64,000 nucleotides of DNA, taken from Amia ocellicauda. Its lineage: Eukaryota > Chordata > Actinopteri > Amiiformes > Amiidae. This document shows positions 9,291 through 62,600 of the stretch, piece after piece; the first letter of the stretch is position 1; each line of letters begins with the position of its first letter. The stretch covers positions 16,383,501 to 16,447,500 of the forward strand of contig NC_089864.1 in NCBI RefSeq assembly GCF_036373705.1, written 5' to 3'. Under the pieces are notes generated by a model. The model was not told the DNA's origin. It searched no databases and was given only the letters and a program-made list of their open reading frames with translations. The position numbers and the translations under genes are program-made.

Positions 9291-11868
9291 ATGCTGCTCA
9301 GCTCGTCCCAGCAGCTCATGGTGCTGTTCAGCGCGGTGCTGTTTGCGGTCGTGCTTTTCCCTCGGATGTTCGGAGGCGGATCGAAGGACCCGAAGCCATT
9401 CGATCCGCATTTCAATAGGAAAGGTAACATCTGTAACAGCTGGTTAAGAGTGTTTCAATGAGACCAGCATAGGACATGGGTGCAGATGTGTATGACTTGT
9501 GTGGTGTATAATAGTTATCTAGTAATTGCTATGGTAAATAATTCAATGATTTAAGTACTGAGCAAAGTTGTTCAATTAAATGTATTTTTGTCTTTATCTT
9601 CTTTTTATAATAATAATAATAATAATAATAAAACAGTCCATCATTTAACAAATATATTTTATATCTCTAAAGTATACTGGCTTTGTATACCTTATTCAGA
9701 AGTTGTTGTGACTGTCAAGCTGTAGCAATTTCAAGCTGCAGCTATATGTATTGTTATAGTAGGTCATTTGAAATTCTCATATGTAAGTGTAACATGGTCA
9801 GTTATTATTTATAGGGGCAATATTTATCATTTTCTTCATATGCATTGTAAAACATTGAATGATTAGGGTATATATGTATGAAGCAAGTACCATATATATT
9901 GTATTTTTTGTTGTTTCTCATCCAGTAAGAGGGCCTCAGGTGAATATGAATGCAGGAGGCGCGAAGAGCCAGCCATTTGAAAACATGCAGCAAATGAGAA
10001 AGATGATGGAACAAGAGATAAAGAGCGAAAGACTCAAAGGCAATAACAAAGGCTACGTGTTTACTCTGATGCCACTGTATGCAATTGGGGTTGGTGTGTT
10101 TGCAGCATACAAGTTTCTAAAGGTAAATATTGCAAATGCATCTGCAGCTTTCATCAGATGTTTGTGTTTAATAGAGCATATTTCACAGTGAGGAGCATCT
10201 CTAAATGTTTTGCAATAGGACAAGGCAGGATGAAAGTTTCCTCCTGCAGAATGACCAGAATGAAAGTTGATTTTTGCCTTAAAATGTGAAAACTGTTCCT
10301 CACATTTGTGTGGGGAAACAAACATATGTTCTGCAGTTGTACTAATAGAACACTGTTTGTCTCGTTTGTTCTTTAAAATACAGATTAAATCAAAGGATGA
10401 ATCAAAAAATGACAAGGATAAGTGTTCTAAAGGGGCGAAAAAGTCTGATGAAACAGGTAAAGTTATTGTTATGGATTTCATTCCTTAGCTTATTTTCTAA
10501 TAAAGGGTTGTCTGCTTCAGGGTTCACTGGCATGGGTATATAGCCAAGGAAATTAAGTCAATTGAATGTTTTGTACTGAACTGCAATTCCTTGTCTATTC
10601 TCCTTCTAATCTTAGCTGAAAATCAACTGAATGAACTTGAACAACGCTTAGCACAGACCGAGAAGATGCTCAATTCAATACTGACCCAGCTGGATCCATT
10701 GACTACATGGTAAGTGAAGCCCATGGGAACTTACCTTTAGCAGGTAAAACACATTTAATGTGCCTTCATTTAAATTAATATTTAGGTTACGTGGTTTAAC
10801 TCCAGAACCTGAACTTGGCCTTCATTTTAAGTTAGAGACTGTATAATATTTAAGGACTGATTGATCTGCACTGTATTGTTTTCATTAGGTTTTTAGATTG
10901 AAAGAATAGTGCTAAAGTAATTTTTTATGGGTAATCCCCCCCTTTTGGGCATGTCATCAGATTTTGCACTTATCAGCACAAAGTTACTAAATAATATAAT
11001 ACAAATGTTTGTCATTCACAGAGGTTCAAATACTTGAACATTTATAGGAATCATGTACAAATATATATTTATGTAATGGCCAGTGTTGTTTAGTTCTCTT
11101 GTTTTCCCTAGTTGTCTGACAGTTTGTATTCTATAATATAATTTACTGCATTATAGTGTTGAATCTGTGGCCTTTGAACAGAAGAATGAAATCATGGCGC
11201 AGTTACATTCCATCAGACAGCTGATGAAGAAAAGAGGCATGGACTGCCCTCCTATGAATGCTGAAGGTGACTTTGTTTTTATTTCATATTTTTGATCACC
11301 TCAGACATACAGGCGAGGAGGCTTAGGTTTAGGTCTACACATTTCTAGAATGTTTTCTCACTTAAAAGTGTTAGTATTCAGTTCTCCCCTAGTCACACTG
11401 AAGTGTGTTGACATTGCAGAGGTGCAGGATTTGACAGCCATGTTTTACCTGAAGTAGGATCCCCACTAATTGAAAGAAAACATAAAAAAATGAGGACTTT
11501 TAAGTTTAGTAACTTTGATTTATTCCTTTGTGTATGTCTATCTATTTAATCTTTCAGAAACGGCCTGTGATAAGAAGCTTGAAGACCTGATCGAGTCTTT
11601 GACTGCCAAGGAGAGTGAGGCAGAGGACAGCTCTGCGGAAAAGCAGGACGGCACCGCAAGAGGAGGAAACGTGCAAGAGCATCTGAACCCAGACACCATT
11701 TTAGGGGAAATTGTAGAAAGTGAAGTAGATGAAAACAATGACGGGAACCTCCATACACTTACCCTGAAGATTTCATCTGAAACTAGAATTGAAGATGTGG
11801 GTGCTCTTCGGAGCATGTGTGAAGAAATTGAAGAAACGGGGTTAAGACGACGTAACAGACCTGAATGA
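9291..11868 (+). CDS. ccdc107: Coiled-coil domain-containing protein 107 (RIC3/CCDC107-type membrane protein)
   Basis: Six coding exons join in frame: 9291-9423, 9926-10122, 10384-10456, 10616-10709, 11157-11266 and 11558-11868, giving about 305 residues. All introns are GT-AG. The start ATG sits in a strong GCCGCC context. Residues about 8-25 are hydrophobic (signal or anchor), and a membrane segment spans about 88-109 (YVFTLMPLYAIGVGVFAAYK). A coiled coil follows from about 135 to 190, with LAQTEKMLNSILTQLDPL resembling mammalian CCDC107. The C-terminus is acidic and ends LRRRNRPE. The arrangement also resembles RIC3, a receptor chaperone of the endoplasmic reticulum; a similar role is inference only. 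A polyadenylation signal lies at 12595. The gene is followed by caps2 on the same strand. Confidence 0.85.
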
Positions 11869-13813: not shown

Positions 13814-24259
<10,446 letters not shown>

Positions 24260-24430
24260 ATATTCAGAGACTGCAGTAAATGCTGAATATGGACAAGTTA
24301 TGAAACGTTTAATGTGTTTGAAGGATGTGTTCATGGTATTGGCAAACAATGAAGGGGATCCACAATATCTGGTTATTCCTAAATGCTGATAGCAATTTGT
24401 AAGATAAATAATCACTTGTAAATTGTATAA

Positions 24431-24436
24431 AATAAA
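24431..24436 (+). other. Candidate polyadenylation signal for caps2
   Basis: AATAAA 172 bp after the caps2 stop codon. It is conserved in the duplicate near 47543. Confidence 0.55.
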
Positions 24437-25081
24437 TATCATCACCACTACTTACAAAGGTCCTCATCAGGATGTCCTGAGGAAGTCAAGGCGTCCTTTC
24501 CGATTTGTTAGGTGTAAGCCTTTAATTTGGGTTTTTTACACTTTGGATTTCACTAAGTTGAATTCAGGTGAACCAACCAGACAAATGTGTTTTTTGTTGA
24601 GGTGCTGAATTATTGTAAGAGTTGTCAGGGTGGGAGAAGATGGGGTGGGAGTGCAGATTACAAATATATGCATATTAACATCTAATAAAATAAATACAAT
24701 AAATGTACTAATACTCCCACATTCCACTGAAATTAAGTAGAAAAGAAATGTAAGCTTTAAAAGCAGAAAATATTGATCTATTTCTTGCCCTTGACCATAT
24801 GTAAATATGTCAGCAGCAACATTTAAAAGATCATTATGAATTATCAATGTAATATACTGTACTGTTGTAATCTATTAGTAACACTTCGGTTTTGCACTGG
24901 TTCATTCCGAAGATATCATGCACTATGAACATAGAAATGTCTTTGAGTGTATACACATTTTAATAACTTATCTTTCTTATAAATTTTTTTTTCTGTGCAA
25001 AATACTGTTTTGGAAGAACAAATCTTCAGCAAATGCTTGAAACAATGCAACCCACTGTAACACTTCTTTTGAGACACTGTA

Positions 25082-26760
25082 TTGCAGAATAGGTTGTGTT
25101 TTGTTAATAAAACCCATTGTTGGCACTATTGCTTGCTGTTGATAGTTAGTGCCTGCAGAGGTCACTATTGTGCAACAAATGGAAGAATATTCCACATCTC
25201 TTGCTGGTAAATTGACTATTATTTTCTCTTAATTGTGGTTTGGATTTCATATTGCACACACCTTTTGAAATAACCAGTTACGGTATAAATGCAATGAATG
25301 TACATTTCATTACCTGATGTGCTTCAAGGGTAATCTTAATGCAGAAGGCTGATAACATAAATAGTCTTTTGAGGCAATTGAGTTATAATTTGGCAACGTG
25401 TCACTCCCTGTAGACCTTCCTATTAAATGCTTGAAAGTAAGCTGTAATCTTCATATAACACTCAATACCATACTCAATGATAACACACCAACAAGATGTA
25501 ATTAACTGAAGCACATATCAGTGCATGGGGTTCAATTATTTTAAATTTCAAAGTTACCACTACTGAGGCTATACAGAAGGCCGGCATAGAGAGAGATTTG
25601 TGTGGCTTAAAGTCAAAGTAATTTAATTATACAGTAGCTGCTGTAATATCTGTAACATCTCTGTTAGTGTGCCATTCTGTACAGTGAAAGTGCAGAGAAA
25701 ACATTAGACGCTGAACTGTCAGAGCCACACATCTCTGAAGACTGGGGAATGCAGTAGCTTTTCTTTTATATTGTATTTGTTTGAATAAAATGCTATTTAG
25801 TTCAAATTGTCACCTCCTTGATTACTGGCAATCACTTCCTATCCGTATGTACACTGAAACTAAGCAACTTAGTTCTTGTCTATGCTGGCCACATTTTGGT
25901 ATTAAAAAGCTTTACATTTATTGTTTATATTTCTTTCATATTGCAAGGGATCTGTGGTGGGGCAAAGGTATTTCTGAAGCAGTTTCAAGTAATAGCTCAT
26001 AGAAATCAATCCTTAATATGTAGCACTGCATCTAAAAAAATAAAACATTTCTTGATGTCACAGAAAGCATTAGAGGCACCTAAATTACAGCATTATAGTG
26101 CCCTAAGTCAAACACACCTGCAGGTCAAGGCTACCACTGGGCAGAGTGATCATACCTTGGCATCTGAAGCAAAGCCATCATACTGTAACTGTGACAAATT
26201 CAAATGTATGCATATAAATCATACAACCTTATTTTGGCAGATGTATACACAAATTCATATACCTTCATGTAGAAGACCCCCTTTATTTTTATACACAGAC
26301 TTCTCACCCTGCGTTGGTGTATTTCCCTCATGTACTGTCTTTGTGTAGAGAGAGAATTTACTTGTTCAGTGCCCGAGATCATTCAAAGCTGCATGTGCCG
26401 AGGGGGTGATATTGAGGCCCCCCTTCCTTATTTTGAAACATAAGAATATAACCGTGATATCATGTACATGATTGGGATATTGAGAACGGGAGACATGAAT
26501 CTACAATGTAAATATCCTATATCATAACCTAAACCCATTAAGACCAGTTATATATTAAAAATACCAAGGTGTTCAACTGGTAAAGTCTTTTGCCCAGAGT
26601 ACAGGATGTATCCTTGAGCTGTTTTTGGTTGGAGTTGGCAGGTTTGTTTAAGGTCACTGTGCTGCATTTATTGGGGGGGCTTGTAAGGCTGTAACCTATC
26701 AATGTGGCCTTCGACAGTTTTCTGCTGAACAGGAAAGCCCTACTGTTTATGCTATACAAA
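25082..26760. other. No recognised gene
   Basis: AT-rich spacer downstream of caps2. Open frames such as 25818-26348 show no familiar motif and no coding-like neighbours. Confidence 0.5.
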
Positions 26761-37757: not shown

Positions 37758-38340
37758 TGAGAAAGAGTAAACCCTGTGCCTGCTTGTCATACTGACACAA
37801 CACTTCATATCTGTAGGCACTCAGTACCCCACATAGGATGGCCTTGATTTTCAATTATTGTATAACTTTGTCAAAGCTGACTGGTTAGACATGTGTTTAT
37901 TCTCGTTTGTTAGTAGTTATGTAACTGATGCATTTGGCCAAGAATAACATGAAAACACAAATAAATGGTCTAAAAACTAATTTGCTGAGGCAGCAAAATC
38001 AAGAAACTCTCCCAAACAGCCTTGCCTCTTAATCAGCCTGTACCTCACTTTCTCTCTGCTGGCTGGATCCACCATGATCAGTTTGTCCGAGGAGAAGTGT
38101 GGAGAACGGGGCTGCATCAAAACTACATATTAAAAGACAAAACAAAGTGACAACAACTCTTTATGATTGTTCATGGAATTGCAATACAGAAATTTAAAAC
38201 TATCTCTGCAGCAATTGAGAGAATAAAACAAATATCTATAGAGTTCTGTATAGGGTTAGCAAAATCCCTATAGAATACAAAATAATGTCAATGAAGTTCT
38301 ACAGACAACAGCTCTATAGAATGCAAAAGAATACTATACA
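37680..38340. repeat. Tandem duplication unit of the ENDOD1-like 5' region (source)
   Basis: The signal-peptide part of exon 1 and about 580 bp of its upstream flank match 40800-43040 once the Tc1 there is removed. Long shared blocks include the region around GCTGGCTGGATCCACCATGA. Confidence 0.85.
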
Positions 38341-40799: not shown

Positions 40800-40971
40800 A
40801 ACCACTTCAAACCATGAGGCCAACCAACAAGTGAAACAGACCATAGGAGCCATTGGGAAAGAGAAAACCATGCACTTGCCTATCATATTGACAATACTTC
40901 ATATTTCAAACCCTGTGCTTGCCTATCATACTGACACACTTTATATCTGTAGTCACTCGGTACCCCATATA

Positions 40972-42536
40972 CAGTGAGGGCAAAAAGTATTTGATCCCCT
41001 GCTGATTTTGTACGTTTGCCCACTGACAAAGAAATGATCAGTCTATAATTTTAATGGTAGGTGTATTTTAACAGTGAGAGACAGAATAACAACAAAAAAA
41101 TCCAGAAAAATGCATTTCAAAAAAGTTATAAATTGATTTGCATGTTAATGAGGGAAATAAGTATTTGACCCCTTCGACTTAGTACTTGGTGGCAAAACCC
41201 TTGTTGGTAATCACAGAGGTCAGACGTTTCTTGTAGTTGGCCACCAGGTTTGCACACATCTCAGGAGGGATTTTGTCCCACTCCTCTTTGCAGATCCTCT
41301 CCAAGTCATTAAGGTTTTGAGGCTGACGTTTGGCAACTCGAACCTGAAGCTCCCTCCACAGATTTTCTATGGGATTAAGGTCTGGAGACTGGCTAGGCCA
41401 CTCCAGGACCTTAATGTGCTTCTTCTTGAGCCACTCCTTTGTTGCCTTGGCTGTGTGTTTTGGGTCATTGTCATGCTGGAATACCCATCCAAGACCCATT
41501 TTTAATGCCCTGGCTGAGGGAAGGAGGTTCTCACCCAAGATTTGACAGTACATGGCCCCGTCCATCGTCCCTTTGATGTGGTGCAGTTGTCCTGTCCCCT
41601 TAGCAGAAAAACACCCCCAAAGCATAATATTTCCACCTCCATGTTTGACGGTGGGGATGGTGTTCTTGGGGTCATTCCTCCTCCTCCAAACACGGCGAGT
41701 TGAGTTGATGCCAAAGAGCATCTCACCACAACACTTTCACCCAGTTCTCCTCTGAATGTTCATTGGCAAACTTCAAACGGGCCTGTACATGTGCTTTCTT
41801 GAGCAGGGGGACCTTGCGGGCGCTGCAGGATTTCAGTCCTTCACGGCGTAGTGTGTTACCAATTGTTTTCTTGGTGACTATGGTCCCAGCTGCCTTGAGA
41901 TCATTAACAAGATCCTCCCGTGTAGTTCTGGGCTGATTCCTCACCGTTCTCATGATCATTGAAACTCCACGAGGTGAGATCTTGCATGGAGCCCCAGACC
42001 GAGGGAGACTGACAGTTATTTTGTGTTTCTTCCATTTGCGAATAATCGCACCAACTGTTGTCACCTTCTCACCAAGCTGCTTGGTGATGGTCTTGTAGCC
42101 CATTCCAGCCTTGTGTAGGTCTACAATCTTGTCCCTGCCATCCTTGGACAGCTCTATGGTCTTGGCCATGGTGGAGAGTTTGGAATCTGATTGATTGATT
42201 GCTTCTGTGGACAGGTGTCTTTTATACAGGTAACGAGCTGAGATTAGGAGCTCTCCCTTTAAGAGAGTGCTCCTAATCTCAGCTCGTTACCTGTATAAAA
42301 GACACCTGGGAGCCAGAAATCTTGCTGATTGATAGGGGATCAAATACTTATTTCCCTCATTAACATGCAAATCAATTTATAACTTTTTTGAAATGCATTT
42401 TTCTGGATTTTTTTGTTGTTATTCTGTCTCTCACTGTTAAAATACACCTACCATTAAAATTATAGACTGATCATTTCTTTGTCAGTGGGCAAACGTACAA
42501 AATCAGCAGGGGATCAAATACTTTTTTCCCTCACTG
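40972..42536 (-). mobile_element. Tc1 element, DD34E type, complete ends, broken transposase
   Basis: The 1565-bp element is flanked by TA (40970-40971, 42537-42538), with long inverted repeats beginning CAGTGAGGGCAAAAAGTATT. The transposase frame starts at 42169 ([20 protein letters not shown]). It is interrupted at about 41725 by a stop and a 14-bp deletion that removes the SDETKIE segment holding the first catalytic aspartate. It then continues to 41179 with HDNDPKHT and NPIENLW (34 residues between D and E). The insertion site is empty in the source duplicate near 37835. Confidence 0.93.
42212..42308. repeat. Perfect 40-bp inverted repeat carrying two TATA boxes, inside Tc1
   Basis: The arms 42212-42251 and 42269-42308 are exact reverse complements around a 17-bp loop. 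Each arm contains TATAAAAG facing outward. The left arm's box points at the transposase start 45 bp away, so it probably serves as the promoter. The copy near 53472-53568 has two mismatches. Confidence 0.85.
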
Positions 42537-43040
42537 TAGGATGGCCTTGATTTTCGGTTATTCTATAACTTTTTCTAAGGTGACTGGCTTAGACATGTTT
42601 ATTCTAGTTTGTTTGTAACTCACACATTCTGCCAAGAATAACATGAAAACATAAATAAACGAATTTGCGGAGGCAGCAAAAGCAAGAAACTCTCCCAAAC
42701 AGCCTTGCCTCTTACTCAGCCTGTACCTCACTTTCTCCCTGCTGGCTGGATCCACCATGATCAGTTTGTCCGAGGAGAAGTGTGGAGAACGGGGCTGCAT
42801 CAAAACTACATATTAAAGACAAAACAAAGTGACAACAACCCTTTATGATCTTTTATGGAATTCCATACAGAAATGTAAAACTATCTCCATAGAGCTATAC
42901 ATTTTCAAAAAAATATCCATTTCATTTTAGAGAATAAAAACAAATCCATAGAGTTCTAGGAGATTAACAATCAGTATATAATTCTATAGAGTACAAACTA
43001 ATGTAAATTGAGTTCTACAGAGGATGATACATTTCCATAG

Positions 43041-44344
43041 AGAATGTAAGATTTAGTAGAATTGTAACATCTCTGTTTCTACAGACTCTATAAAGAGTTC
43101 AGGCATTTGCAAAATCCATATAGATTTCTAGAATATCACGCATATTGAGAGGAACAGTAGTGAAACTACCGAGATTCTCTATACAACTCTAAGGGTTTAG
43201 CGGTTTTTACCTTGTTGCAGATGCAAAACTAAAATCACTTAGAATTACCATCTATACCAGCAGCAAAAGTCCTTTACCTCAAAAACGTACATACCTCTTA
43301 TACACAATGAGATGTCGTCAAACTCAGTTGAAATCTCTGATAAATTGTAGTTCCTCGTTTAATTACAAATAAAGGAATGATTTGGTAGGAATAAATGCAT
43401 GGTTTAAATAAATGCATAGAGGAATAAATACATTTCAATACGGTGACTGTTATACCCCTTCCCGTGATAAACCAGGTGGAATTGCGTGGAATGAGCCGAG
43501 ACTGTGATTCTTTTTTTGTAACCATAGGGAGCCGAGCTGTGGCAGGACGCAGTCTCTTCTACCCGGTTATTGTCTACTACGCCACTTTGGGAATTTCACC
43601 CAAATACATACTTAAAGCTAAAGATCAATTCCCCAATGCAGGCCCCCCTTAAACAAATAACAGTAAGCAAAGACGTGCAAATAACAGACAGTAACAGTTT
43701 ATTCCGTATATGACAGGACTAGTTAAAAATATTAAAAACTAATTACAAGTGTTGTAACCAATAAAAACCCATACAGAGATACAAACATTAAAACAAAACA
43801 TACCTCTAAGCAAATCGCGATCACCTCAAGCGCCCTGGCATAAGGGAAGGTAGAGACTTGCTCCCCACACTAGGAAGCTCATTTCTATATCCCATTAAAC
43901 CCATTAAAGAAGTTACCTGCACCAGCTGCATTTAATAATGAGGACCAATTAACCTCAGTGGGTACATTTTGATAGATCAATCAGTTTGACTATGCAGTAA
44001 ATCTTTGTAGGGACCAAAATCTTGAATCTTTTTTCAGCTATCAATGGGACCGGGACAGAGACTCGTGACATTGATTTAAACTTTTTTAGTTTTTAGTTTT
44101 TTGTTTTCTCTTGCATACCAAGATTTCGAGCTGGTCGCGTTGGACAAGTAGTTGCACCACAATTTAGTGGACTTTATTCAATTGTTCTGCCAAATACTGA
44201 TCTTATCTGTTCAGTAAAAATGTGTGCTAAGTATGCTATCCTGTGCTAACTAGATGAGCAGGAATAAGGAATACTGTGTTGTAACTGAAGTTTTTATATT
44301 TTAAAGAATTTTCTGTACTAAATAAAGCCTATTTATAATCGTAT
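43041..44344. other. No recognised gene
   Basis: Spacer with a 69-residue open frame (43443-43652) of unknown nature. Nothing else was identified. Confidence 0.4.
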
Positions 44345-46850
44345 CTTGTGTTGTGTGGTCCTGGGATAAAAAAAAAGAACCTGCAGAGAAGGATTTGGAT
44401 CAAAGTTTATTAAATATTGCATCTAATCATTAAAGTATATTCATATTTCGAGACCTGGTGACTGTATATTCCGCCATGTGGTGTAGTCCTTTAGTAATTA
44501 AAATAATTATATTTGCCTTTTGATTTAATTGTCCTCTGTGACCTATGCTCAAAACCTTGTTCTCAATTATACACTTTTGCCAATATACCCTAGCATTCTG
44601 TTTGGATGGAGAAAGTGAGGAGTCCACATAGACTCCTAGGTCTTTCTCATGCATTACTTCATCTAGTTCCATTCCTCACATAGTTAATTATAGTGGACAT
44701 GTTTGTTACCTGCATGTAATACCTTGCACTTGTCCACATTGAATTTAATCTGTCAGGTGTCGGCCCACAACTGAATATTATCTAAATCCCTTTGAATAAC
44801 CTGTACTGCAGAGATTGTATCTGCTGAGCCACCTATCTTAGTATCATCTGCAAATTCCAGATCATTAATATAGATTAGAAAAAGCAAAGGTCTAGTACTG
44901 ATCCCTGTGGAACTCCACTAACAACCTCACTTCAGTTAGAAGCAACTCCTCTAATCGACACCCTCTGTTTCCTAGACATCAACCAGTTCATAATCCATCT
45001 ACTTACATTACCCTGAATGCAATTTGATGATCAGTCTTTGGTGTGGAACCTTATCAAAAGCTTTTTGGAAATCTAAGTATATCAGATCATATGCTTTCAC
45101 GTGATCTACAGCTGCAGTTGCATGTTCAGAAAATTCTAATAAATTAGTAAGACATGATCTGCCTCGTCTAAATCCATGTTGACTATCTCCAAGAATATGG
45201 TTTTCATTAAGGTACTCCTCTATTTTCTGTCTAATCATTTTTTCCAACATTTTACAGGTGATGCAGGTGGGACTGATTGGTCTATAATTTCCTGGTTCAG
45301 TTTTGTCCCCTTTCTTGTGGATTGGTTTGACATTTGCTGTCTTCCAGTCAGTTGGCACATCACCTGTTCTAAGTGTCATTTGGAATATTTGAGTTAGAGG
45401 CCTATAAATCATTTCCCTAATTTCTTTAAGTACTGTTGGAAATATCCCATCTGGCCCAGGTGATTTGTTTGTTTTTAATTCTGCTAGTGCCTTTAGTACC
45501 TCCTCCTCATTTATCCTGATCTCTCTTAGGGTTTGATGTCTTTTCTTTTGTAAAAACTTCTGTGAAATACTCATTTAGAACATTTGCCATTTGTTGTTCA
45601 TTTTCCAAGATACTTCCATTTTTGCTCTTTATCTGTTTCACTTCATGTAGACCATTGTTTTTGACTTGTTTTAGTCCTTGTTTTTTTTAAAGTATGCCTC
45701 AAAGCTAACTATATTGTGATCACAGTTTGCCATTGGTTCATTGTCCCTCTGACTCTATCTTGGTCATTTGAAAAGATCAAGTCAATGCATGCGCTCTCTC
45801 TGGTTGGTTCCCTGACAAATTGAGTTAGAAAGCAGTCATTTACCATCTCAACCATTTCCATTTCTGCTTCTGTAGTCCCGACTGGTCTTTCCCAGTCTAT
45901 GTTTGGGAAATTGAAATCCCCCATTATAACAGCCACATCCTTGCTACATGCAGTCCTGATTACACTGTACAGTGCAACATCTTGCTGAATATCTGAGTTG
46001 GGTAGTCTGTAACACACTCCTACCACTAATCCTCCAGATCTCTTGTTCAACAGCTTAACCCCCAAAGATTCTGACTGTCTGGTTTGCACAGGTCCCATCT
46101 ATCCCAGAAGAAAGACCAATGCTCCATACATCTAAAACCCTCTTCCCTACACCAAGGTTTCAACCATGTGTTAAACTTTCTAATCTCAGCCTGTTTCCCT
46201 GGCCATGCACATGCTACATGATGTATTTCGGAGAAAACTACTGTGGAGGTTCTGCTCTTTAGTTTCTTTCCTAACTCTTTATATTTGTCTTGCAGAACCT
46301 CTGCCCTCCCTTTTCCTATGTCATTGGTTCCAATGTGGACCATGACCAGTGGATTCCCCCCGGCTTTGGCCAGTAGCTCGTCTACTAGTTTAGGGAGATC
46401 TGCAACCTGAGCACCAGGCAGGCAAGATACCATGTGGGTCTCCTTATCACTAGAACAGACGGTGTGATCTACACCTGTAAGAATCGAGTCTCCTACTATA
46501 ACTACCTCCTTGGTGCTCAACTGCCCTCCCATCACCCTCTGAGCTGTCACTGTCCAACCAGCAGTTGGAACCTGTTGGGCAATTCTAGCTCTTGGGATGT
46601 CTCTAAGAGATGTGCACGCCTTTTTCGGCAGTTACGACCTACTGTAACCCAGCAGTTCTATATGCTTTTCTGCTCTAAGGTCTCAACTCTCCTGGGTTTT
46701 GGCGTGCACACCATCTCTCTCATGGGCTGATTGACTAATGCTTCCATATCACTAATACAGCGCAGATCAACAAGCTGAGCCTCAAGATCACGAACCTTGA
46801 TCTCTAGGACTTCAACATGCTGACAACATTCACAAATGACCTGCACATAA
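44345..46850 (-). mobile_element. CR1-type LINE, longer copy (ORF1, endonuclease, reverse transcriptase)
   Basis: On the minus strand: an ORF1 N-terminus (46846-46658), an SGNH esterase domain (46550-46080) with GDSIL and GTNDIG but lacking the DGLH box because of a roughly 0.4-kb deletion near 46075, endonuclease (46098-45709), reverse transcriptase (45574-45008) with NKSPGPDGI, NYRPIS and HGFRRGRSC, and the C-terminal tail (44672-44430, EKDLGVYVDSSLSPSKQ). Frames are broken, so it is inactive. The portion right of 45775 belongs to the caps2 duplication. Confidence 0.88.
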
Positions 46851-48191
46851 CAAATCTACATGTGACAGCAAACAACAAGACCACCACACTGCATTTCATT
46901 ACTTGATGTATTATTAAAACAAAGCATAGCACACTCATTATAATAAAAATAACAATTGATAAGATAAGAGAGAGTATGAAAATAATAAAGAGTATAACAC
47001 TCTATGAAAAGATCAGCAATGTTCATAAATGTGGCAGTACAGCCAGTCCAACATGAGTTTCTGAGTCTTTTCTCAGTAGTTTAGTACAAGTTCAGTTAGC
47101 AAGTGGTGAACTCGGCCTGCTGAGAAATTCATAAACCAGGATATTCATGGTTCTGTCTCGCCATTGTAACATACATGCCACATACATTGATGCAGGTGAA
47201 GCCACTGAGGAGCAGCTGAGGACTGGGTTCGTGGAGACGCTGCAGGGAGCTTGCAGAGACCCCAGGGAAGTCTCATACTGTGAGTTTGAAGACTATTATG
47301 AAGGACTAAGTATTGGAATAGCTGCCGATGAAGACTTTGCCAATGTCTTGAAGAATTCATGGGGGATTTAAATATTCAGAGACTGCAGTAAATGCTGAAT
47401 ATGGACAAGTTATGAAACGTTTAATGTGTTTGAAGGATGTGTTCATGGTATTGGCAAACAATGAAGGGGATCCACAAAATCTGGTTACTCCTAAATGCTG
47501 ATAGCAATTTGTAAGAGAAATAATAGCTTGTAAATTGTATAAAATAAATATCATCACCACTACTTACAAAGGTCCTCATCAGGATGTCCTGAGGAAGTCA
47601 AGGCGTCCTTTCCGATTTGTTAGGTGTAAGCCTTTAATTTGGGTTTTTTACACTTTGGATTTCACTAAGTTGAATTCAGGTGAGCCAACCAGACAAATGT
47701 GTTTTTTGTTGAGGTGCTGAATTGTTGTAAGAGTTGTCAGGGTGGGAGAAGATGGGGTGGGGGTGCAGATTACAAATCTATGCATATTAACATCTAATAA
47801 AATAAATACAATAAATGTACTAATACTCCCACATTCCACTGAAATTAAGTAAAAAAGAAGTGTAAGCTTTAAAAGCAGAAAATATTGATCTATTTCTTGC
47901 CCTTTTTGACCATATATAAATATGTCAGCAGCAACATTTAAAAGATCATTATGAATTATCAATGTAATATACTGTACTGTTGTAATCTATTAGTAACACT
48001 TCGGTTTTGCACTGGTTCATTCCGAAGATATCATGCACTATGAACATAGAAATGTCTTTGAGTGTATACACATTTTAATAACTTATCTTTCTTATAATTT
48101 TTTTTATTTATTTTTCTGTGCAAAATACTTTTTTGGAAGAAAAAATCTTGAAACAATGAAACCCACTGTAACACTTCTTTAGAGATACTGT
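45775..48191 (+). repeat. Segmental duplication unit B (copy)
   Basis: Matches 22250-25081 in the same orientation. It includes LINE sequence, the intron 17 end, caps2 exon 18 and the 3' flank. It has a roughly 0.4-kb internal deletion near 46075 and a few small indels. It ends exactly where a Tc1 fragment begins. Confidence 0.93.
47196..47371 (+). pseudogene. caps2 (exon 18 copy): Duplicated last exon of caps2
   Basis: The 176-nt exon, with its AG acceptor, stop codon and downstream polyadenylation signal, is identical to 24084-24259 as read base by base. It encodes the degenerate last EF-hand and conserved C-terminus of CAPS2. No other caps2 exon lies nearby. It is on the same strand, about 23 kb downstream of the real exon, with the ENDOD1-like gene between on the other strand. 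It is probably an orphan exon, though use as an alternative terminal exon is conceivable. Confidence 0.9.
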
Positions 48192-48763
48192 AGTAGTCAG
48201 GATTGAGGGAAAGATGAATGCAGCAATGTACAGAGACATCCTTGATGAAAACCTGCTCCAGAGCACTCTGGACCTCAGACTGGGGCGAAGGTTAATCTTC
48301 CAACAGGACAACGACCCTAAGCACACAGCCAAGATAACAAAGGAGTGGCTACAGGACAACTCTGTGAATGTCCTTGAGCCCAGACTTGAACCCGATTGAA
48401 CATCTCTGGAGAGATCTGAAAATGGCTGTGCACTGATGCAAAAAGAATGGGAGAAACTGCCCAAAAATAGGTGTGCCAAGCTTGTAGCATCATACTCAAA
48501 ACGACTTGAGGCTGTAATTGGTGCCAAAGGTGCTTCAACAAAGTATTGAGCAAAGGCTGTGAATACTTATGTACATGTGCTTTTTTGTTTTTTATTTTTA
48601 ATAAATTCGTAAAGATTTCAAACAAACTTTTCATGTTGTCATTATGGGGTATTGTTTGTAGAATTTTTAGGAAAATAATTAATTTAATCCATTTTGGAAT
48701 AAGGCTGTAACATAACAAAATGTGGAAAAAGTGAAGCACTGTGAATACTTTCCGGATGCACTG
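48192..48763 (+). mobile_element. Right half of a Tc1 (DD34E) element of another subfamily
   Basis: The plus strand encodes the C-terminal half of the transposase ([33 protein letters not shown]) with frameshifts. It ends with TTTCCGGATGCACTG before TA at 48764-48765. The left half is missing, cut where duplication unit B ends. Confidence 0.88.
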
Positions 48764-48774
48764 TATGTAAAAAG

Positions 48775-49150: not shown

Positions 49151-50918
49151 GTTTATACCTGGTTTCTTACATCAAGGTTGTCTTGGAGGGATGTTTGTGA
49201 ACCAATGGTCACCTGGCAGAAGTAGGCACTATTTTTATGGGTCATGGAGTCCTGGCCCACATCTCCCCTTACCTTATTATGCAGTAATGTGCAGAAAACC
49301 TTAAAAAAGACAAGGGTTCATTGAGGCAAAAAGGGCAGTTTTCAACCATCACATTTGTGAATGAGGGCCATTTGGGGCCCCTTCCTCTTTTTCCCCATTT
49401 TAGGGGTGCAGGTATTGAGTCTCCTCAGACATGGAACAGCTGGCACTAGAGGTATTGAGAGGGAGACTTGGTCACGGCCAGGGGGTTTTCCTCAATCACG
49501 ATGAATACATTGCTTTTCCTAGGAAGTGCATGTATTTGTACTGTACTTTTCTCTCTAGGCGCTACCAGCCCCCGGCACTGAACACAGGGGAGACGGGGTT
49601 AGGTTGGGCTGGGAGATGGGTTTCTCGTCTCCTCCCTTTAGCAGCTAAGGTTGCAGTATGCTCCTATTCTCCCAGTGTAATGCGGATTGTGTCGTGGTTT
49701 AAGAGAAGATTCAGATCTGCTACACAGCTTTCAAATTGAAGGATCTTTGTATTTAGGGCAGGATAACTGGATGTGCTCCTCTGTCTTCTTTGGCCATCCA
49801 GGACAGTTTCTATGGCCACGCTGTGGTCACTGAGTCAGTACTAGGTCAGGATCTGTCAATGTCTTGTTTTTTTTAACCCTTACCAGATATGGTGCAAGGG
49901 TGAATTCTTTGTTTAGGACCAGATAGCATTGCAGTTTGTTTTATTTCATTTTTCCAATGTAGTTTATAATTGTCTTTCAGATCCAGATCAATGTGTTTCA
50001 TTGTTTGTGCTGGGAGTCTTTTGCTGGTGGTGTCAAAGAACATAAAAATAATGTACAATACCTGCAGGGTGGAAACAATAGGCAGGGGGCTTAATAATAT
50101 TTGAATCTCTACTTCTTGCATTGTATAAAATTAAATGTTCTATGCAATTGGATTTTTTTTCTCTCCAGTAGGCGCACATCACCTGACCAGTAGAATGACA
50201 GGGACACTGAATACTTAATCTTCTGATTACTAATAAGCTGTACATAGTTAATGCATTGTTAGAGTGTATTTGAAATCACAAATGTGGTTTATGTTCATTA
50301 TTTAATTAACCTCAATTAATCATATTTAACTATGACATATTTACCAGCTACCTTACCTAAATTAGCATAACAAATTTTTTAATAAACACAATCCAGGACT
50401 TTATGTATGTCTAACACCAGGGAGACATGATTAATGAACATTGTATTAATATATAAATTCAATAAATTATTCATTTCTTCAATATGTGGTTGTATGGCAA
50501 AAAAAAGTGAAAACATGCTTTACCAAGAACAAAAAGTGCTAAAATGTATCAATAACAAGAAAACAATCAGAAACCTTGGTGCCTTTAAAGGACCAAGGAC
50601 TGCTTTTATTCTTGGAATGCTATTTTTTCTCTGTTTGTTTTGTGTTGATCAAGTGTTGCTATACCCTGCATAATTATCATTTTGTTCTTATTGTGCCTTG
50701 GTCCCTGTATATGTGCGTGTTTACAAAAATGTATGGCTTGCTTGGTGTCTTCATCCATGGACGCTCTGAACCCTAAGCGCTTCGATGCCCACCGAGTTCA
50801 ACTGCTGAAACAACGAAATAACATGTAATGAACACTGGAAATTGACTCTGTCTTCCCGGCCAGTTGATGGAAGCTGATGGACCACAATGAAAGAACAATC
50901 ACCAGCAATATTAATATA
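49151..50918. other. No supported gene
   Basis: Open frames at 49431-49739 and 50434-50673 show no recognisable domain. Nothing else was identified. Confidence 0.4.
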
Positions 50919-52140
50919 CACTCACCTAAAGGATTATTAGGAACACCATACTAATACTGTGTTTGAAACCCCTTTCGGCTTCAGAACTGCCTTAATTCTA
51001 AGTGGCATTGATTCAACAAGGTGCTGAAAGCATTCTTTAGAAATGTTGGCCCATATTGATAGGATAGCATCTTGCAGTTGATGGAGATTTGTGGGATGCA
51101 CATCCAGGGCACGAAGCTCCCGTTCCACCACATCCCAAAGATGCTCTATTGGGTTGAGATCTGGTGATTGTGGGGGCCAGTTTAGTACAGTGAACTCATT
51201 GTCATGTTCAAGAAACCAATTTGAAATGATTCGACCTTTGTGACATGGTGCATTATCCTGCTGGAAGTAGCCATCAGAGGATGGGTACATGGTGCTCATA
51301 AAGGGATGGACATGGTCAGAAACAATGCTCAGGTAGGCCGTGGCATTTAAACGATGCCCAATTGGCACTAAGGGGCCTAAAGTGTGCCAGGAAAACATCC
51401 CCCACACCATTACACCACCACCACCAGCCTGCACAGTGGTAACAAGGCATGATGGATCCATGTTCTCATTCTGTTTACGCCAAATTCTGACTCTACCATC
51501 TGAATGTCTCAACAGAAATCGAGACTCATCAGACCAGGCAACATTTTTCCAGTCTTCAACTGTCCAATTTTGGTGAGCTTGTGCAAATTGTAGCCTCTTT
51601 TTCCTATTTGTAGTGGAGATGAGTGGTACCCGGTGGGGTCTTCTGCTGTTGTAGCCCATCCGCCACAAGGTTGTACGTGTTGTGGCTTCACAAATGCTTT
51701 GCTGCATACCTCGGTTGTAACGAGTGGTTATTTCAGTCAAAGTTGCTCTTCTATCAGCTTGAATCAGTCGGCCCATTCTCCTCTGACCTCTAGCATCAAC
51801 AAGGCATTTTCGCCCACAGGACTGCCGCATACTGGATGTTTTTCCCTTTTCACACCATTCTTTGTAAACCCTAGAAATGGTTGTGCGTGAAAATCCCACT
51901 AACTGAGCAGATTGTGAAATACTCAGACCAGCCCGTCTGGCACCAACAACCATGCCACGCTCAAAATTGCTTAAATCACCTTTCTTTCCCATTCAGACAT
52001 TCAGTTTGGAGTTCAGGAGATTGTCTTGACCAGGACCACACCCCTAAATGCATTGAAGCAACTGCCATGTGATTGGTTGATTAGATAATTGCATTAATGA
52101 GAAATTGAACAGGTGTTCCTAATAATCCTTTAGGTGAGTG
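50919..52140 (-). mobile_element. Tc1/mariner element, DD36E type, copy 2
   Basis: The 1222-bp element is flanked by TA (50917-50918, 52141-52142), with the same terminal repeats as 1404-2618 and only scattered differences. Unlike copy 1 it keeps the full sequence next to the right repeat. Confidence 0.93.
50937..51992 (-). CDS. Tc1/mariner (DD36E) transposase with altered C-terminus
   Basis: A 351-residue frame from an ATG at 51992. It keeps the helix-turn-helix and all three catalytic motifs (WSDESRF, FQQDNAPCH, NPIEHLW). A small indel near 50965 replaces the normal last residues (KGGQTQY in copy 1) with KGVSNTVLVWCS. The catalytic core is intact. Whether the altered tail matters is unknown. 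It is a selfish element gene. Confidence 0.87.
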   Translation of the reverse strand: MGKKGDLSNFERGMVVGARRAGLSISQSAQLVGFSRTTISRVYKEWCEKGKTSSMRQSCGRKCLVDARGQRRMGRLIQADRRATLTEITTRYNRGMQQSICEATTRTTLWRMGYNSRRPHRVPLISTTNRKKRLQFAQAHQNWTVEDWKNVAWSDESRFLLRHSDGRVRIWRKQNENMDPSCLVTTVQAGGGGVMVWGMFSWHTLGPLVPIGHRLNATAYLSIVSDHVHPFMSTMYPSSDGYFQQDNAPCHKGRIISNWFLEHDNEFTVLNWPPQSPDLNPIEHLWDVVERELRALDVHPTNLHQLQDAILSIWANISKECFQHLVESMPLRIKAVLKPKGVSNTVLVWCS

Positions 52141-52345
52141 TATGTTTACAGAATCTGATCAAGAGGGCTTAATTTGTGATTAACATGTCCAAAATATCTG
52201 TTTATAGAACACAATTTTACGGAATTAATGTAACATGTTTATATTTTATTAAAGAGGGCAACTGTTGGGGTAAAATTGTCCCCTATGAAGTATATATCCA
52301 CTCTGCATGTTGGGAGAACAGAGTACAAGAGTACATATTCTACTA

Positions 52346-56696: not shown

Positions 56697-59600
56697 TCAT
56701 CGAATCTCTTCTTGCTTTTTTGAAGTGTGTTTCAAAATGCTCTTTATTATAATAATTCCAAGCAAGATTAAAACCAGGAAGGCAGTTGTCCCACCAGCAA
56801 TGGTCATCAAATTTTGGAGCTGAACCCCTAGGACAGAAAATTAGGTTTTGTAAATTCTGAACGCCTACAATTTTAAGCAAACACTATCCCCTGGTGGTAA
56901 ATGCCAATAGCTGAACTCGGAAGATTCATAAATAGTGCTTTGAAAAACATTCCAGACAAGCCACATGCAGAATGCCAATAGCTGCACATTTCACAGCTAC
57001 TAGAAAATATAAGTTTGGGAAACTAACATTTAACTAAAGTATTTCTAGTAGATCTCAAAGAAAATCTTTAGGATTCATTTTCCACTAAAGGAATTAGTAT
57101 TTCTTATGAATAGTGATGACATTGTATATAAAATCAAAATATTATGCTGCACATTCATGGAAACTTCTTTAGGAATCCTAAAAAAGCATGAAGTGTCCCT
57201 AAATATAATGGGCTGAAGTTTTAAAAACTCCAAAATGGGAACAATAATTCAACTGGAACGTAAGTGCATTAAATGAGAAATCTATATAAATAGATTTTGG
57301 CACAGTTACTTACAGTGGGATTGCTTTGCCTCAAATGTCATGGTATGATTACTTGCAATGATGGGCCCAGCAGAAAGAACTGCTGTGAGTTGTCTATTTA
57401 GATCTCTTCTTCTTTTTTCAGTTCTCTTTGCTGAACACATCTGAAAAAAAAAGTGTGCAGAAGGAAGGGCATATTGATAAAAGGAAATCATTTTGATGAT
57501 GTCTAGTCAGCTCATTGTTAGATGACAAGAAAAAGAAAATTAACATTTTGTTCTGTAGAGCAATATGTTTTACGTTTTCACTTCACATTTACCGTTGAAC
57601 AGTTTTCCTTTTCCTTCTGTGTGCATATCTTTGTCATGCAGTGTACATGGATAGGTTTCTGCGGGTTGATGGAGAATATCTGCACAGAAAATCTACTTAT
57701 CTGCTCCAATCCATTGGCAGTGTACCACCTAAAAGTGTCATCAACAGCACAGCTGAAAGAAGAATACAGATTGGTGTTCAGGAAGTAAAGTCACTAGTAT
57801 AATAGAAGTATACACTGAGTGACAAATTAAATGATTGTCCCAATATTATTTTTTCAAGCTAAAAGTATTCACTTGGTTTGTGTATAAAATTATGCAATAC
57901 AAGTTCAACAAGAAAACAATGGTACCAAAAACTCTTGACCTATGCAAATGCATAGTGTAACTTACCTGTCATTCAAGAAGAATGCTTTGGGCTTTCCCTC
58001 AGGGTTGGAGGTCTCTGTTGCCCAACAGGAGACCACTTCCAACACAAAGTCAAATGCCAAGGTGCCCAGAACATGAAGTGAGACCTCAAAGAAGAGATGA
58101 TCATCAATGTTCAACTGCATTGGGATTGAGTAGCTGGACTTGAAAGAGTCGTTGTTGTGAAGGGTCATGCTCAATTCGAGAATCCGGCTGCTGTTCTGCT
58201 GGATCAGTATCAGGGACTGATGCCTTTTGAAAGAAGGGAAAAACAGTCTGGTGAATTTAATTGAAATTATCACTGACAAAATCAAAGCGCTACCATGAGA
58301 AACTGCCTGCAAGTACAATGACCATTTGGAACAAAGAACGTCCCAGATCAAATAAACAGGGCAAACCTAGAAGTTACTCTTAATACATCCAAATTCATCA
58401 TTGCAGTTTGAGCCACCAACAGCATGATAGGATATACAATAAATAGTGCATTTTTAAAAGCTTCATATTACCCTGCCCCCCACTTACCACTCCATGGGAT
58501 CTTCCCCCAGGTCTGCCTGGCTGAGGTACTCTCTGGAATAGATGCATTTCCACACCACTTGAAGGTCCCTCCGAGTGATCACTTTATCAGTGCTAGCAGA
58601 GACGTGGAGAACATTCTTAAACACAATGTGGGTTTCGTTCACCTGTTTAACAAATAATAAACGTTTTATTTTCTCCTCTCTTCAAACCACCAAAGCATTA
58701 AAACCATTAGATACTTCCCAAAATTCTTGCTCCACAGTAGACATGATTACTAAGTATGGAGGAGTAATAATACTTCTCGCTTTCTTTAACACGACAGCTT
58801 CCATCATTCAAAACGACGTTCACCTCCCCACCAAAGCGGCTTCTTAAAAACTGCTTGGAAATTCCAGTTTTTATCTGGCCCACCGTGCACTGAGTAAACA
58901 TGCCATCCTCTGTTGGAAAGAAGGACATTATTACAAATCAACTTCACGAGCACACCAAGTCTACAGCAGGTCAAACAGCTGCAGATTTCATTAAGAAAAT
59001 TCAGAAGTGCACAACTTTCTTTAAAATTTTTGTCCAGCAGTCGTCATTCAGGAGGGACCACATTATTGCATCATATCGTAGTAAAGTAACAGCATTTAAG
59101 CTTCGGGATTCAAACCTTTAAAGAATGTATAAAAGCATTAATAAAATAAAGCTTCAATACTATCCATCTTTCTTTGCCACACAAAATAACGTTCCTACCA
59201 TCACACGTAGAGCGCCGAGGGCTGATGGCATCGCTCACATCGTAGTATCCTTCATGACACACGCAGGTGTAGGAGTCCAGAGTATTAATGCAATAGGAAT
59301 TTTTACTGCAGTCATTCAAGACCACGGAAGAACATTCATCTTGGTCTACATTAAAGAAAAGTAAAGACAATTTGAAAATATATGTAATGCTATATCTAGG
59401 TTTATCACCCAAGAAATGTTTTAGACTATGGATTGGTCTCCATCATTTAATTGAGGAATTCCATCTTTATGTTGTGAATGTTGATAAGATCCCAATCATA
59501 TTAAGTTAAATTTACTTCATCTAGAACTAAAATGCAAACATTGAAACACTGGTAATTTATTTTTTTTAAACAAGAAAAGCAGAACAAAATACTCAGAAGT

Positions 59601-62600
59601 CATGGAAAGTCATTCAAAAGAGTAAAATGTGAAATATTATTTTTGCCTGTAAACAACCGAGTGGGGTTGGTTTACATTAGCAGTAGCCAAAATCGGTGAA
59701 AAGGTTCACGTCTCCCACCTGGTCCAATCACAGCGCACTTGGCAAGTTGCCTTTTCCCTTTCCATTGCTCAAGACTGTTGAAATGGAACACTGATATGCA
59801 CTGATGGCTATGGCATATTTCACGTTTACAAGTATTGTCCTTATATTATACAGTTATAGGAGATCAAACCATTTTACCAGAAGGCATAAAAGACATACAA
59901 CTGACTTACCATCCAAGGATATCCCACCGTTTGAAAATGTGAGGTTAGGGTAGGTGTGGGACTGAATATAATTGGTTAGTTGTGCTGGAGACAACAGCAC
60001 TTCGATTTCTTTTTTGGAAACGTCATAGATTTTAAAAGTTATCTTCGTTTTGTATTTAGCCGATTCAAATGCTACCAGTACAGCTTTTACTCGACCTGGA
60101 TATTCTTTGAAGATATCCTCCAACTACAAACACAAAAAGACACAGAAGCAATCATAGAAGGATAGAATCATACAGATTGAAAACAAGCTTATAGATTTGT
60201 AATTTTGCTTACTTTGTTTTTTACAAGAAGATTCAGTTCAATTCGAGCTTTTGAGGTCAAATTCTTGAGATAGGGTGGCAATGCCCATGGCACAATAAGA
60301 AAAAGGTATGAAAGAGCAAATTGTATATTTGTATCTTAAGAAAAAACAAAAACAAAAAGTTGGTTAATCCAAGACTGCCATTAAGTTTCAAAGGTCTTGA
60401 AAATATACAATGCATAGAATACTGAAGAGAAACCACAAACCTTCAGAGGGCCTGATCATGGTCCTCATGGGAGCTTGTGTGACTGTGACATTCTGGGCCA
60501 AAGACTGGACAGTGCTGCCCTCAAGGCTGCCAGGGGGGTCCATTTGGGTCTTGTTAGGGAAGTCATATGCTGGGGAGAGCCTGGCCTCTGTAACAAACTC
60601 CAAAAACACAGAACTGCCATGCTCACCAAAACACTCCTCAGTCAACTCCAGCTGATAGTGAGTTCTGGGTTTCAGATCGGAAATCTCCAGCACAGGACTG
60701 CTAAGCTTCCCACCCTCAACCACTGTCCAGTTTTCATCATACAGCTCGTAGACAAAGGTTGCAGTGGATCCAGACTTGGTGGTCCAGTACACCTTGGAGT
60801 CCTGAATTTGGATTTGCAATTGCGATACAGTACCAGGGCCTGGTGGAGAGGTAACATTAATTTGTAAGGAATGCATCCAATTCTGTATTAAGAGGCTGTG
60901 AATAGATCAAACAGGATTACTTCATAGAATAATGCCAACACACAACAGTTCTATCCACAGAGAAAAACAATTATGGAGCATTGAAGCTGATGAAGAATAA
61001 AAATAGTATGTACATATAAAAACATCTGGAAGAGAAACATGCAGTAATACACTTCCAAAATTACTGTACAAGATCTGCCCCATCTCCCAGTAGCCCTGAT
61101 CCAACAGGTCTCAAGGAATTACCCGTTGTGGCCTGGATGGACATTACACTCATCACAACATCCTCTCCACACACAGCCTCCACTTTGGCGTTATACTGGT
61201 GGCACGGCTGCAGTCCAGTCACTGTGTAATTGGTATCGGTGGTGATATTCTGCAAAACGTCATCGTTGTACACTCTGAACATAGAAATAGAGGAGTCATT
61301 CCTCACAAACCACGTCAGGGTGTAGCTGACATTTGTGGCCGCTGCTTGACGGACATCTTTCAACTCGACATTTGCTGAGGAAAAGAAAGCGGTGCATTAC
61401 TTAAAACGGCATTATTTTAAATAACTTTCCACAAAAAGTTGGAGAACATGGCAACCACTGACAGATGGTGTACCCTAGTAAATTCAGCATTTAGGACTGG
61501 AATTAAGTAAGTGATGTATTGAACTAGCGATCATTTCTTTCCATAGAATGGCAGATTAACTGACAACATAGATATTAAATATAAATCAGACACGGGGAAG
61601 TGACCATATTTTACCTGCATTGCCATCGATAAAGATCTTTTCACTGCTCCGTGTTTCGTCACTCTCGCACACCGTCTGCAGGGCGAGTTGCACTTTACTG
61701 CACACAGGCAGGTTGCGGACTGTGAACTTCAACTCATCCTGCTCGTGCCTGTAAGACTCCTCCAAGATTAGCTGACCAGTGGAGTTGAGGTGAAGCACCG
61801 AGACCGTGAACAAGGTGTACTCCTGATTCAGGGGGCAGTCCCAGGACACTGCAATGCTGCTGCCGTTTAACGCGGTGACTCTGAAGTCCCTGGGTACATC
61901 GGGATCTGGACATTTCCAGATGAAAAGAACATGACACCTTTAGCTCAGTTAAGGGTCGCAAAGCCTACACAGAATGGATGCTAAGCAATAGAGATCGCTA
62001 CAATTCAATCTGTAAGTTTTGCTGAAATTTGCACACTCGGGCATCTGCCAGCTTTACCTGTGAGGGCTTTTACACACACAATGGAGGGATTATCCGCCAT
62101 CTCCACACAGGCCACATAATCCTTACAGGAGTCCAGGTTATTAAATCTGTAGTATGAGGTTAGAACAGAATCCACAGTCACCAGATTAACAGAATCATCA
62201 TCGGGCTCGTACAAAGTGACCTTGTGCTCTTGATCTCCGGGCAGAGAATAAGGGCCGTTCCAGGAGATGAGCAGTGAGGAGATGCTCCTGGATTCGACAG
62301 TGAGGGGGAAGCGCTCAGTGTAACCTAGGAGAGACTTGCATCATCAGAAACATGCTGAGGAGACATTTACTTTATGACAAGAGTTTTTTGTTTTTTTTGT
62401 TAAAGATTGCTACACAGTTTCTTAAAGTATCTCAGTGTAATAAAATATACATCTTTTTGACATTTTAAAATTGTTTGGGTAACTCATTTTGTAAGTATTA
62501 CCAAACAGGTTACAATAAGACACTTTACCCATTTTATAACACGCATTACCCTTCCTCAAACAGGAGCTGGGATTCACATGGAGAATGTTTAATAAGATCA

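Follow-up and report, generated by a model that had tools for sequence, protein, structure and literature searches.

The last exon of caps2 in Amia ocellicauda is present a second time 23 kb downstream of the gene, and we regard this second copy (c2), with a probability of roughly 0.78, as a dispersed partial duplicate of the gene's 3' end, DNA-mediated in origin, drifting and non-functional. The window analysed comprises 64 kb of contig NC_089864.1 (positions 16383501-16447500; 39% GC, no N), a contig of 31.2 Mb. Copies of the exon were searched across the whole genome (988 Mb), and a closer comparison was made in the 323 kb round the locus. The gene's own last exon is designated c1, and two older inverted fragments are designated A and B. 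According to the preferred reading, a 2.1-kb stretch would have been copied from c1 to its new site, carrying the 5' part of a CR1-like LINE in antisense orientation, the end of the last intron, the last exon, the 3' UTR and some flank, and would have landed with a LINE on one side and a fragment of a DNA transposon on the other. The most likely route of copying, in DNA rich in repeats, is template switching or the repair of a break.

The 3' end of the gene exhibits a penultimate exon (exon 17) at 21263-21359 on the plus strand, followed by a donor GT at 21360 and in frame with the last exon, whose coding part and stop codon, supported by a four-way alignment, occupy 24084-24259 on the plus strand, with an AATAAA signal at 24431. 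The joined translation of these two exons matches calcyphosin 3e3r over residues 1-89 of 90 (E 3e-14) and the Pfam family EF-hand_7 (E 9.4e-08). Judged from these matches, they are the C-terminal EF-hand region of a member of the calcyphosine family, which we take to be CAPS2 as opposed to another member. The orphan exon c2 is located at 47196-47371, also on the plus strand, with its AATAAA at 47543. As the first-pass annotation had stated, the 176 nt of the exon, stop codon included, show no difference between c1 and c2, so that c2 would encode the same 58 residues as c1, and the acceptor and the polyadenylation signal of c2 are intact as well: the 50 nt upstream of the acceptor and the neighbourhood of the AATAAA are identical in the two copies.

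The duplicated sequence itself falls into two blocks. In a BLASTN comparison of the window with itself, the main block at 22962-25081 matches 46073-48192 in plus/plus orientation with 96.6% identity counting gaps over 2,140 columns, and a small block at 22253-22548 matches 45778-46073 in the same orientation with 94.9% identity. The source block, on the plus strand, comprises the 5' part of the LINE, the end of the last intron, the last exon, the 3' UTR and about 650 bases past the AATAAA. Base by base, 34 of 2,100 aligned bases of the main block are substituted (1.6%; 18 transitions and 16 transversions), with five indels accounting for 40 gap columns, and 15 of the 296 bases of the small block, which consists of LINE sequence, differ (5.1%). 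The recent duplication proposed in the first-pass annotation is thus real, as is the same orientation of the repeat, which had been given as 22250-25081 against 45775-48191; it is not unbroken, however, since copy 2 lacks 413 bases of minus-strand LINE sequence that copy 1 has at 22549-22961, the gap lying at 46073 between the two blocks. A single large tandem duplication can be dismissed, as the other repeat pairs of the window have different offsets; several of these pairs resemble DNA transposons by eye.

The complete identity of the exon is no more than weakly unexpected at this level of divergence and amounts to a mere hint. Under an even distribution of the 39 events along the block, the probability of an exon without any event is 0.032 and that of an identical run of 347 columns, the longest between c1 and c2, 0.039; when substitutions only are counted, these values become 0.050 and 0.072. 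As the exon and its borders lie within this longest run, there is room for selection or conversion. Nevertheless, values of 0.03-0.07 are too weak for the identity to serve as proof of function.

The presence of a CR1-like LINE beside the exon is corroborated by the reading frames found on the minus strand. Copy 1 exhibits one frame for a GDSL esterase and one for an endonuclease, the latter in a piece at 22253-22548 (Exo_endo_phos_2, E 3.3e-08) that is cut off at about 22250, where the LINE ends. In copy 2, the LINE extends leftward to about 44.5 kb: the element left of the c2 block spans 44433-46073 on the minus strand and contains a reverse transcriptase frame (RVT_1, E 2.9e-16 for 45011-45574). 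The order GDSL-esterase, endonuclease, reverse transcriptase fits that of CR1-like LINEs. Apart from the copies at c1 and c2, no further copy of this LINE was found within the 323 kb. The left LINE piece differs at 15 of 296 positions, the LINE portion of the main block at 10 of 774 (Fisher p 0.0009); when the five differences clustered next to the 413-base gap are omitted, the left piece shows 10 of 267 (p 0.018). Given this higher divergence of the left piece, the duplicated unit possibly results from more than one event. The left piece may be part of another LINE insertion, which would make 46073 the true left border of the duplication, or copy 1 may subsequently have lost the remainder of its LINE, with mutation of the junction.

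At its right end, c2 is abutted by a DNA-transposon fragment at 48193-48765 on the plus strand, which is similar to another element of the window and which we presume to be Tc1-like; its translation has no Pfam match. A Tc1-like element split by the arrival of c2 was considered and rejected, because the window, with up to 3 mismatches allowed, yielded only one of its ends. Likewise, for the transposon end that borders copy 1 at 21971, the window contains no partner. A DNA transposon that carries a long open frame is found at 1400-2621 and 50915-52143 and at many places in the 323 kb, where its copies are 97-98% alike. One copy lies within B, inside its last caps2-like intron, and the equivalent target position in c1 (21970) carries, by eye, a different transposon end. 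Between c1 and c2 lies a minus-strand gene with an Endonuclease_NS domain (Pfam), presumably endod1-like. The stretch just upstream of this gene recurs as an older repeat at 37837-38305 and 42540-43021 (87% and 72% identical), the second copy starting directly beside a DNA transposon at 40970-42539. Elsewhere in the window, minus-strand frames at 59113-62340 contain an EGF domain (EGF_CA, above the cut-off) and, below the cut-off, a stretch resembling fibronectin III, and perhaps belong to a uromodulin-like gene. Plus-strand frames at 9859-11865 resemble what we take to be part of ric3, with no Pfam match for 11494-11865.

The first-pass annotation implied two copies of the exon. Both are present, but the genome search recovered the last exon four times on a single chromosome, in a span of 202 kb: c1, c2, B (16299137-16299310, minus strand) and A (16228741-16228893, minus strand, with the exon match cut short). 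The exon DNA used as query gave four matches among four candidates scored, and the 58-residue query gave four among nine, at the same places. In tblastn searches of the 323 kb, exon 17 was recovered in each of c1, A and B, exon 15 in c1 alone, and neither was found near c2, which thus holds only the last of these three exons. Fragments A and B align with c1 in two stretches, 21228-21974 and 23970-26100, with 80-84% identity, except for one piece of A at 96.6%. The two fragments are themselves near-identical, and between them lies a tandem array (16246772-16288592 of NC_089864.1) with a unit of 8.59 kb, whose four full copies start at 16254244, 16262832, 16271412 and 16280001 and are 99.6-99.7% alike, with one partial copy at 99.1%.

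These older fragments make it possible to tell the original from the derived copy. The homology of c2 ends at the base equivalent to 25081, whereas c1, A and B remain homologous to one another beyond it. As A and B are homologous to c1 on both sides and share its surroundings past this point, where c2 does not, c1 is the original site and c2 the derived one, in agreement with the direction from gene to downstream copy assumed in the first-pass annotation. The longer LINE beside c2 had suggested that c2 could be the original exon, and the shared flank rules this out. With A and B as outgroup, which are older fragments of the same genome and not an outside species, the 22 differences between c1 and c2 from 23900 onward are distributed as 11 on c1, 8 on c2, 1 ambiguous and 2 at positions without outgroup. 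Neither copy clearly decays faster.

The divergence between c1 and B is markedly mosaic: both exons and the adjoining noncoding sequence are 0-5% different, and the remainder 14-15%. In the intron directly beside exon 17, differences occur at 0 of 34 and 2 of 42 sites; there is 1 in the 92 bases before the last exon, 3 in its 176, and 17 in the 342 sites of 24260-24660. The outer parts show 76 differences in 548 sites (21402-21974) and 186 in 1,236 (24661-26100). The best segment, 23992-24611, with 16 differences in 561 against a mean of 11.2%, surpasses all 5,000 column permutations, and the outcome is the same with both exons removed, although this test is blind to uneven rates, and 24661-25081 (93/391) is indeed more diverged than 25082-25560 (43/461). 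A and B differ from each other at 1 of 422 and at none of 461 sites in the 3' flank and at 7 of 341 in the core, where most differences adjoin a deletion in A. The mosaic is suggestive of past gene conversion between c1 and A/B, without amounting to proof; uneven substitution rates may also produce it, as may selection on A or B. The suggestion that the orphan exon serves as a gene-conversion partner thus gains some weight from the gene and its older fragments, but the identical stretch between c1 and c2 is borderline.

Copying by the LINE machinery would be a different origin for c2. It could have arisen by 5' transduction, with an antisense RNA that extends from near 25081 across the exon and into the LINE, or because the LINE reverse transcriptase switched template at 46073 to an RNA of this kind. 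The 5' side of the LINE does face the exon, the leftward continuation of the LINE is present only in c2, and the greater divergence of the LINE left of 46073 is what a jump between two LINE templates predicts. However, no convincing target-site duplication is observed, the longest match between 48178-48230 and 43500-44760 being 8 bases, and the 3' end of the LINE was not found; the reverse transcriptase end also appears to be missing, judged against CR1 proteins. We consider this origin unlikely. That c2 is actually used is likewise unlikely. It could serve caps2 as an alternative last exon, as the first-pass annotation proposed, or could terminate another transcript and give it a different 3' UTR, and its acceptor, open frame, stop codon and AATAAA, all identical to those of c1, would permit this; its exon is also free of any substitution. 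Nothing found supports the first possibility. A caps2 transcript would have to pass the acceptor and poly(A) signal of c1 and then a further 23 kb that includes the minus-strand gene. Because c1 comes first with the same signals, the opposite-strand gene intervenes and the residues are the same, c2 is probably non-functional, unused in transcripts and free to drift, the absence of differences in its exon being borderline. Short reads from the last caps2 exon have no unique placement in this genome.

An assembly artefact, with two alleles placed in series, is the least probable of the explanations considered. A divergence of 1.6% would fit alleles in some outbred species, and the region is a hard one, with near-identical 8.6-kb tandem repeats in the same 323 kb. 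In contrast, c2 ends sharply in unrelated sequence and lacks the 413 bases, and the window contains no N and belongs to a long contig.

The preferred reading, a partial duplication through DNA, places c2 in a known kind, as partial gene duplicates are well described (PMC3449122). In the DNA-mediated duplicates presented there, part of a gene is likewise copied elsewhere together with intron and flank, and the ancestral copy is longer. c2 comprises the last exon, more than 100 bases of its intron, LINE sequence and flank; it differs in carrying only the last exon, without promoter or start codon, and shows no sign, short of a systematic search, of a new open frame formed with neighbouring sequence. 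The relation of c1 to A/B resembles interlocus gene conversion in its near-identical tracts, some 200 and 600 bases long and partly noncoding, within more diverged homology; unlike in that system, the partners are exon fragments and not whole genes, and the conversion, seen in one genome, may no longer be ongoing. LINE 5' transduction and template-switch chimeras are also known, a U6 case among them, and in such chimeras too single-copy sequence beside the 5' side of a LINE is moved along, whereas c2 has neither a recognised target-site duplication nor a LINE 3' end. Literature searches on CAPS2, partial duplication, conversion, fish LINE transduction and duplicated terminal exons brought up nothing on this locus.

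Taken alone, c2 carries little weight: it is an ordinary partial gene duplication that probably does nothing, such duplications are common, and it would add no new residues. A wider picture can be drawn tentatively, and we hold it to be possible rather than probable: the 3' end of caps2 would be a repeatedly exported module, giving rise to an inverted two-exon fragment (A, B) and later to c2, and its orphan exons would keep exchanging with the gene by conversion. If this exchange is true, the exons and their noncoding borders would remain near-identical while the remainder decays, and, if the wider picture is right, the locus, with its four exon copies in 202 kb and their conversion-like mosaic, would offer a compact natural case for how long orphan exons exchange with a working gene.
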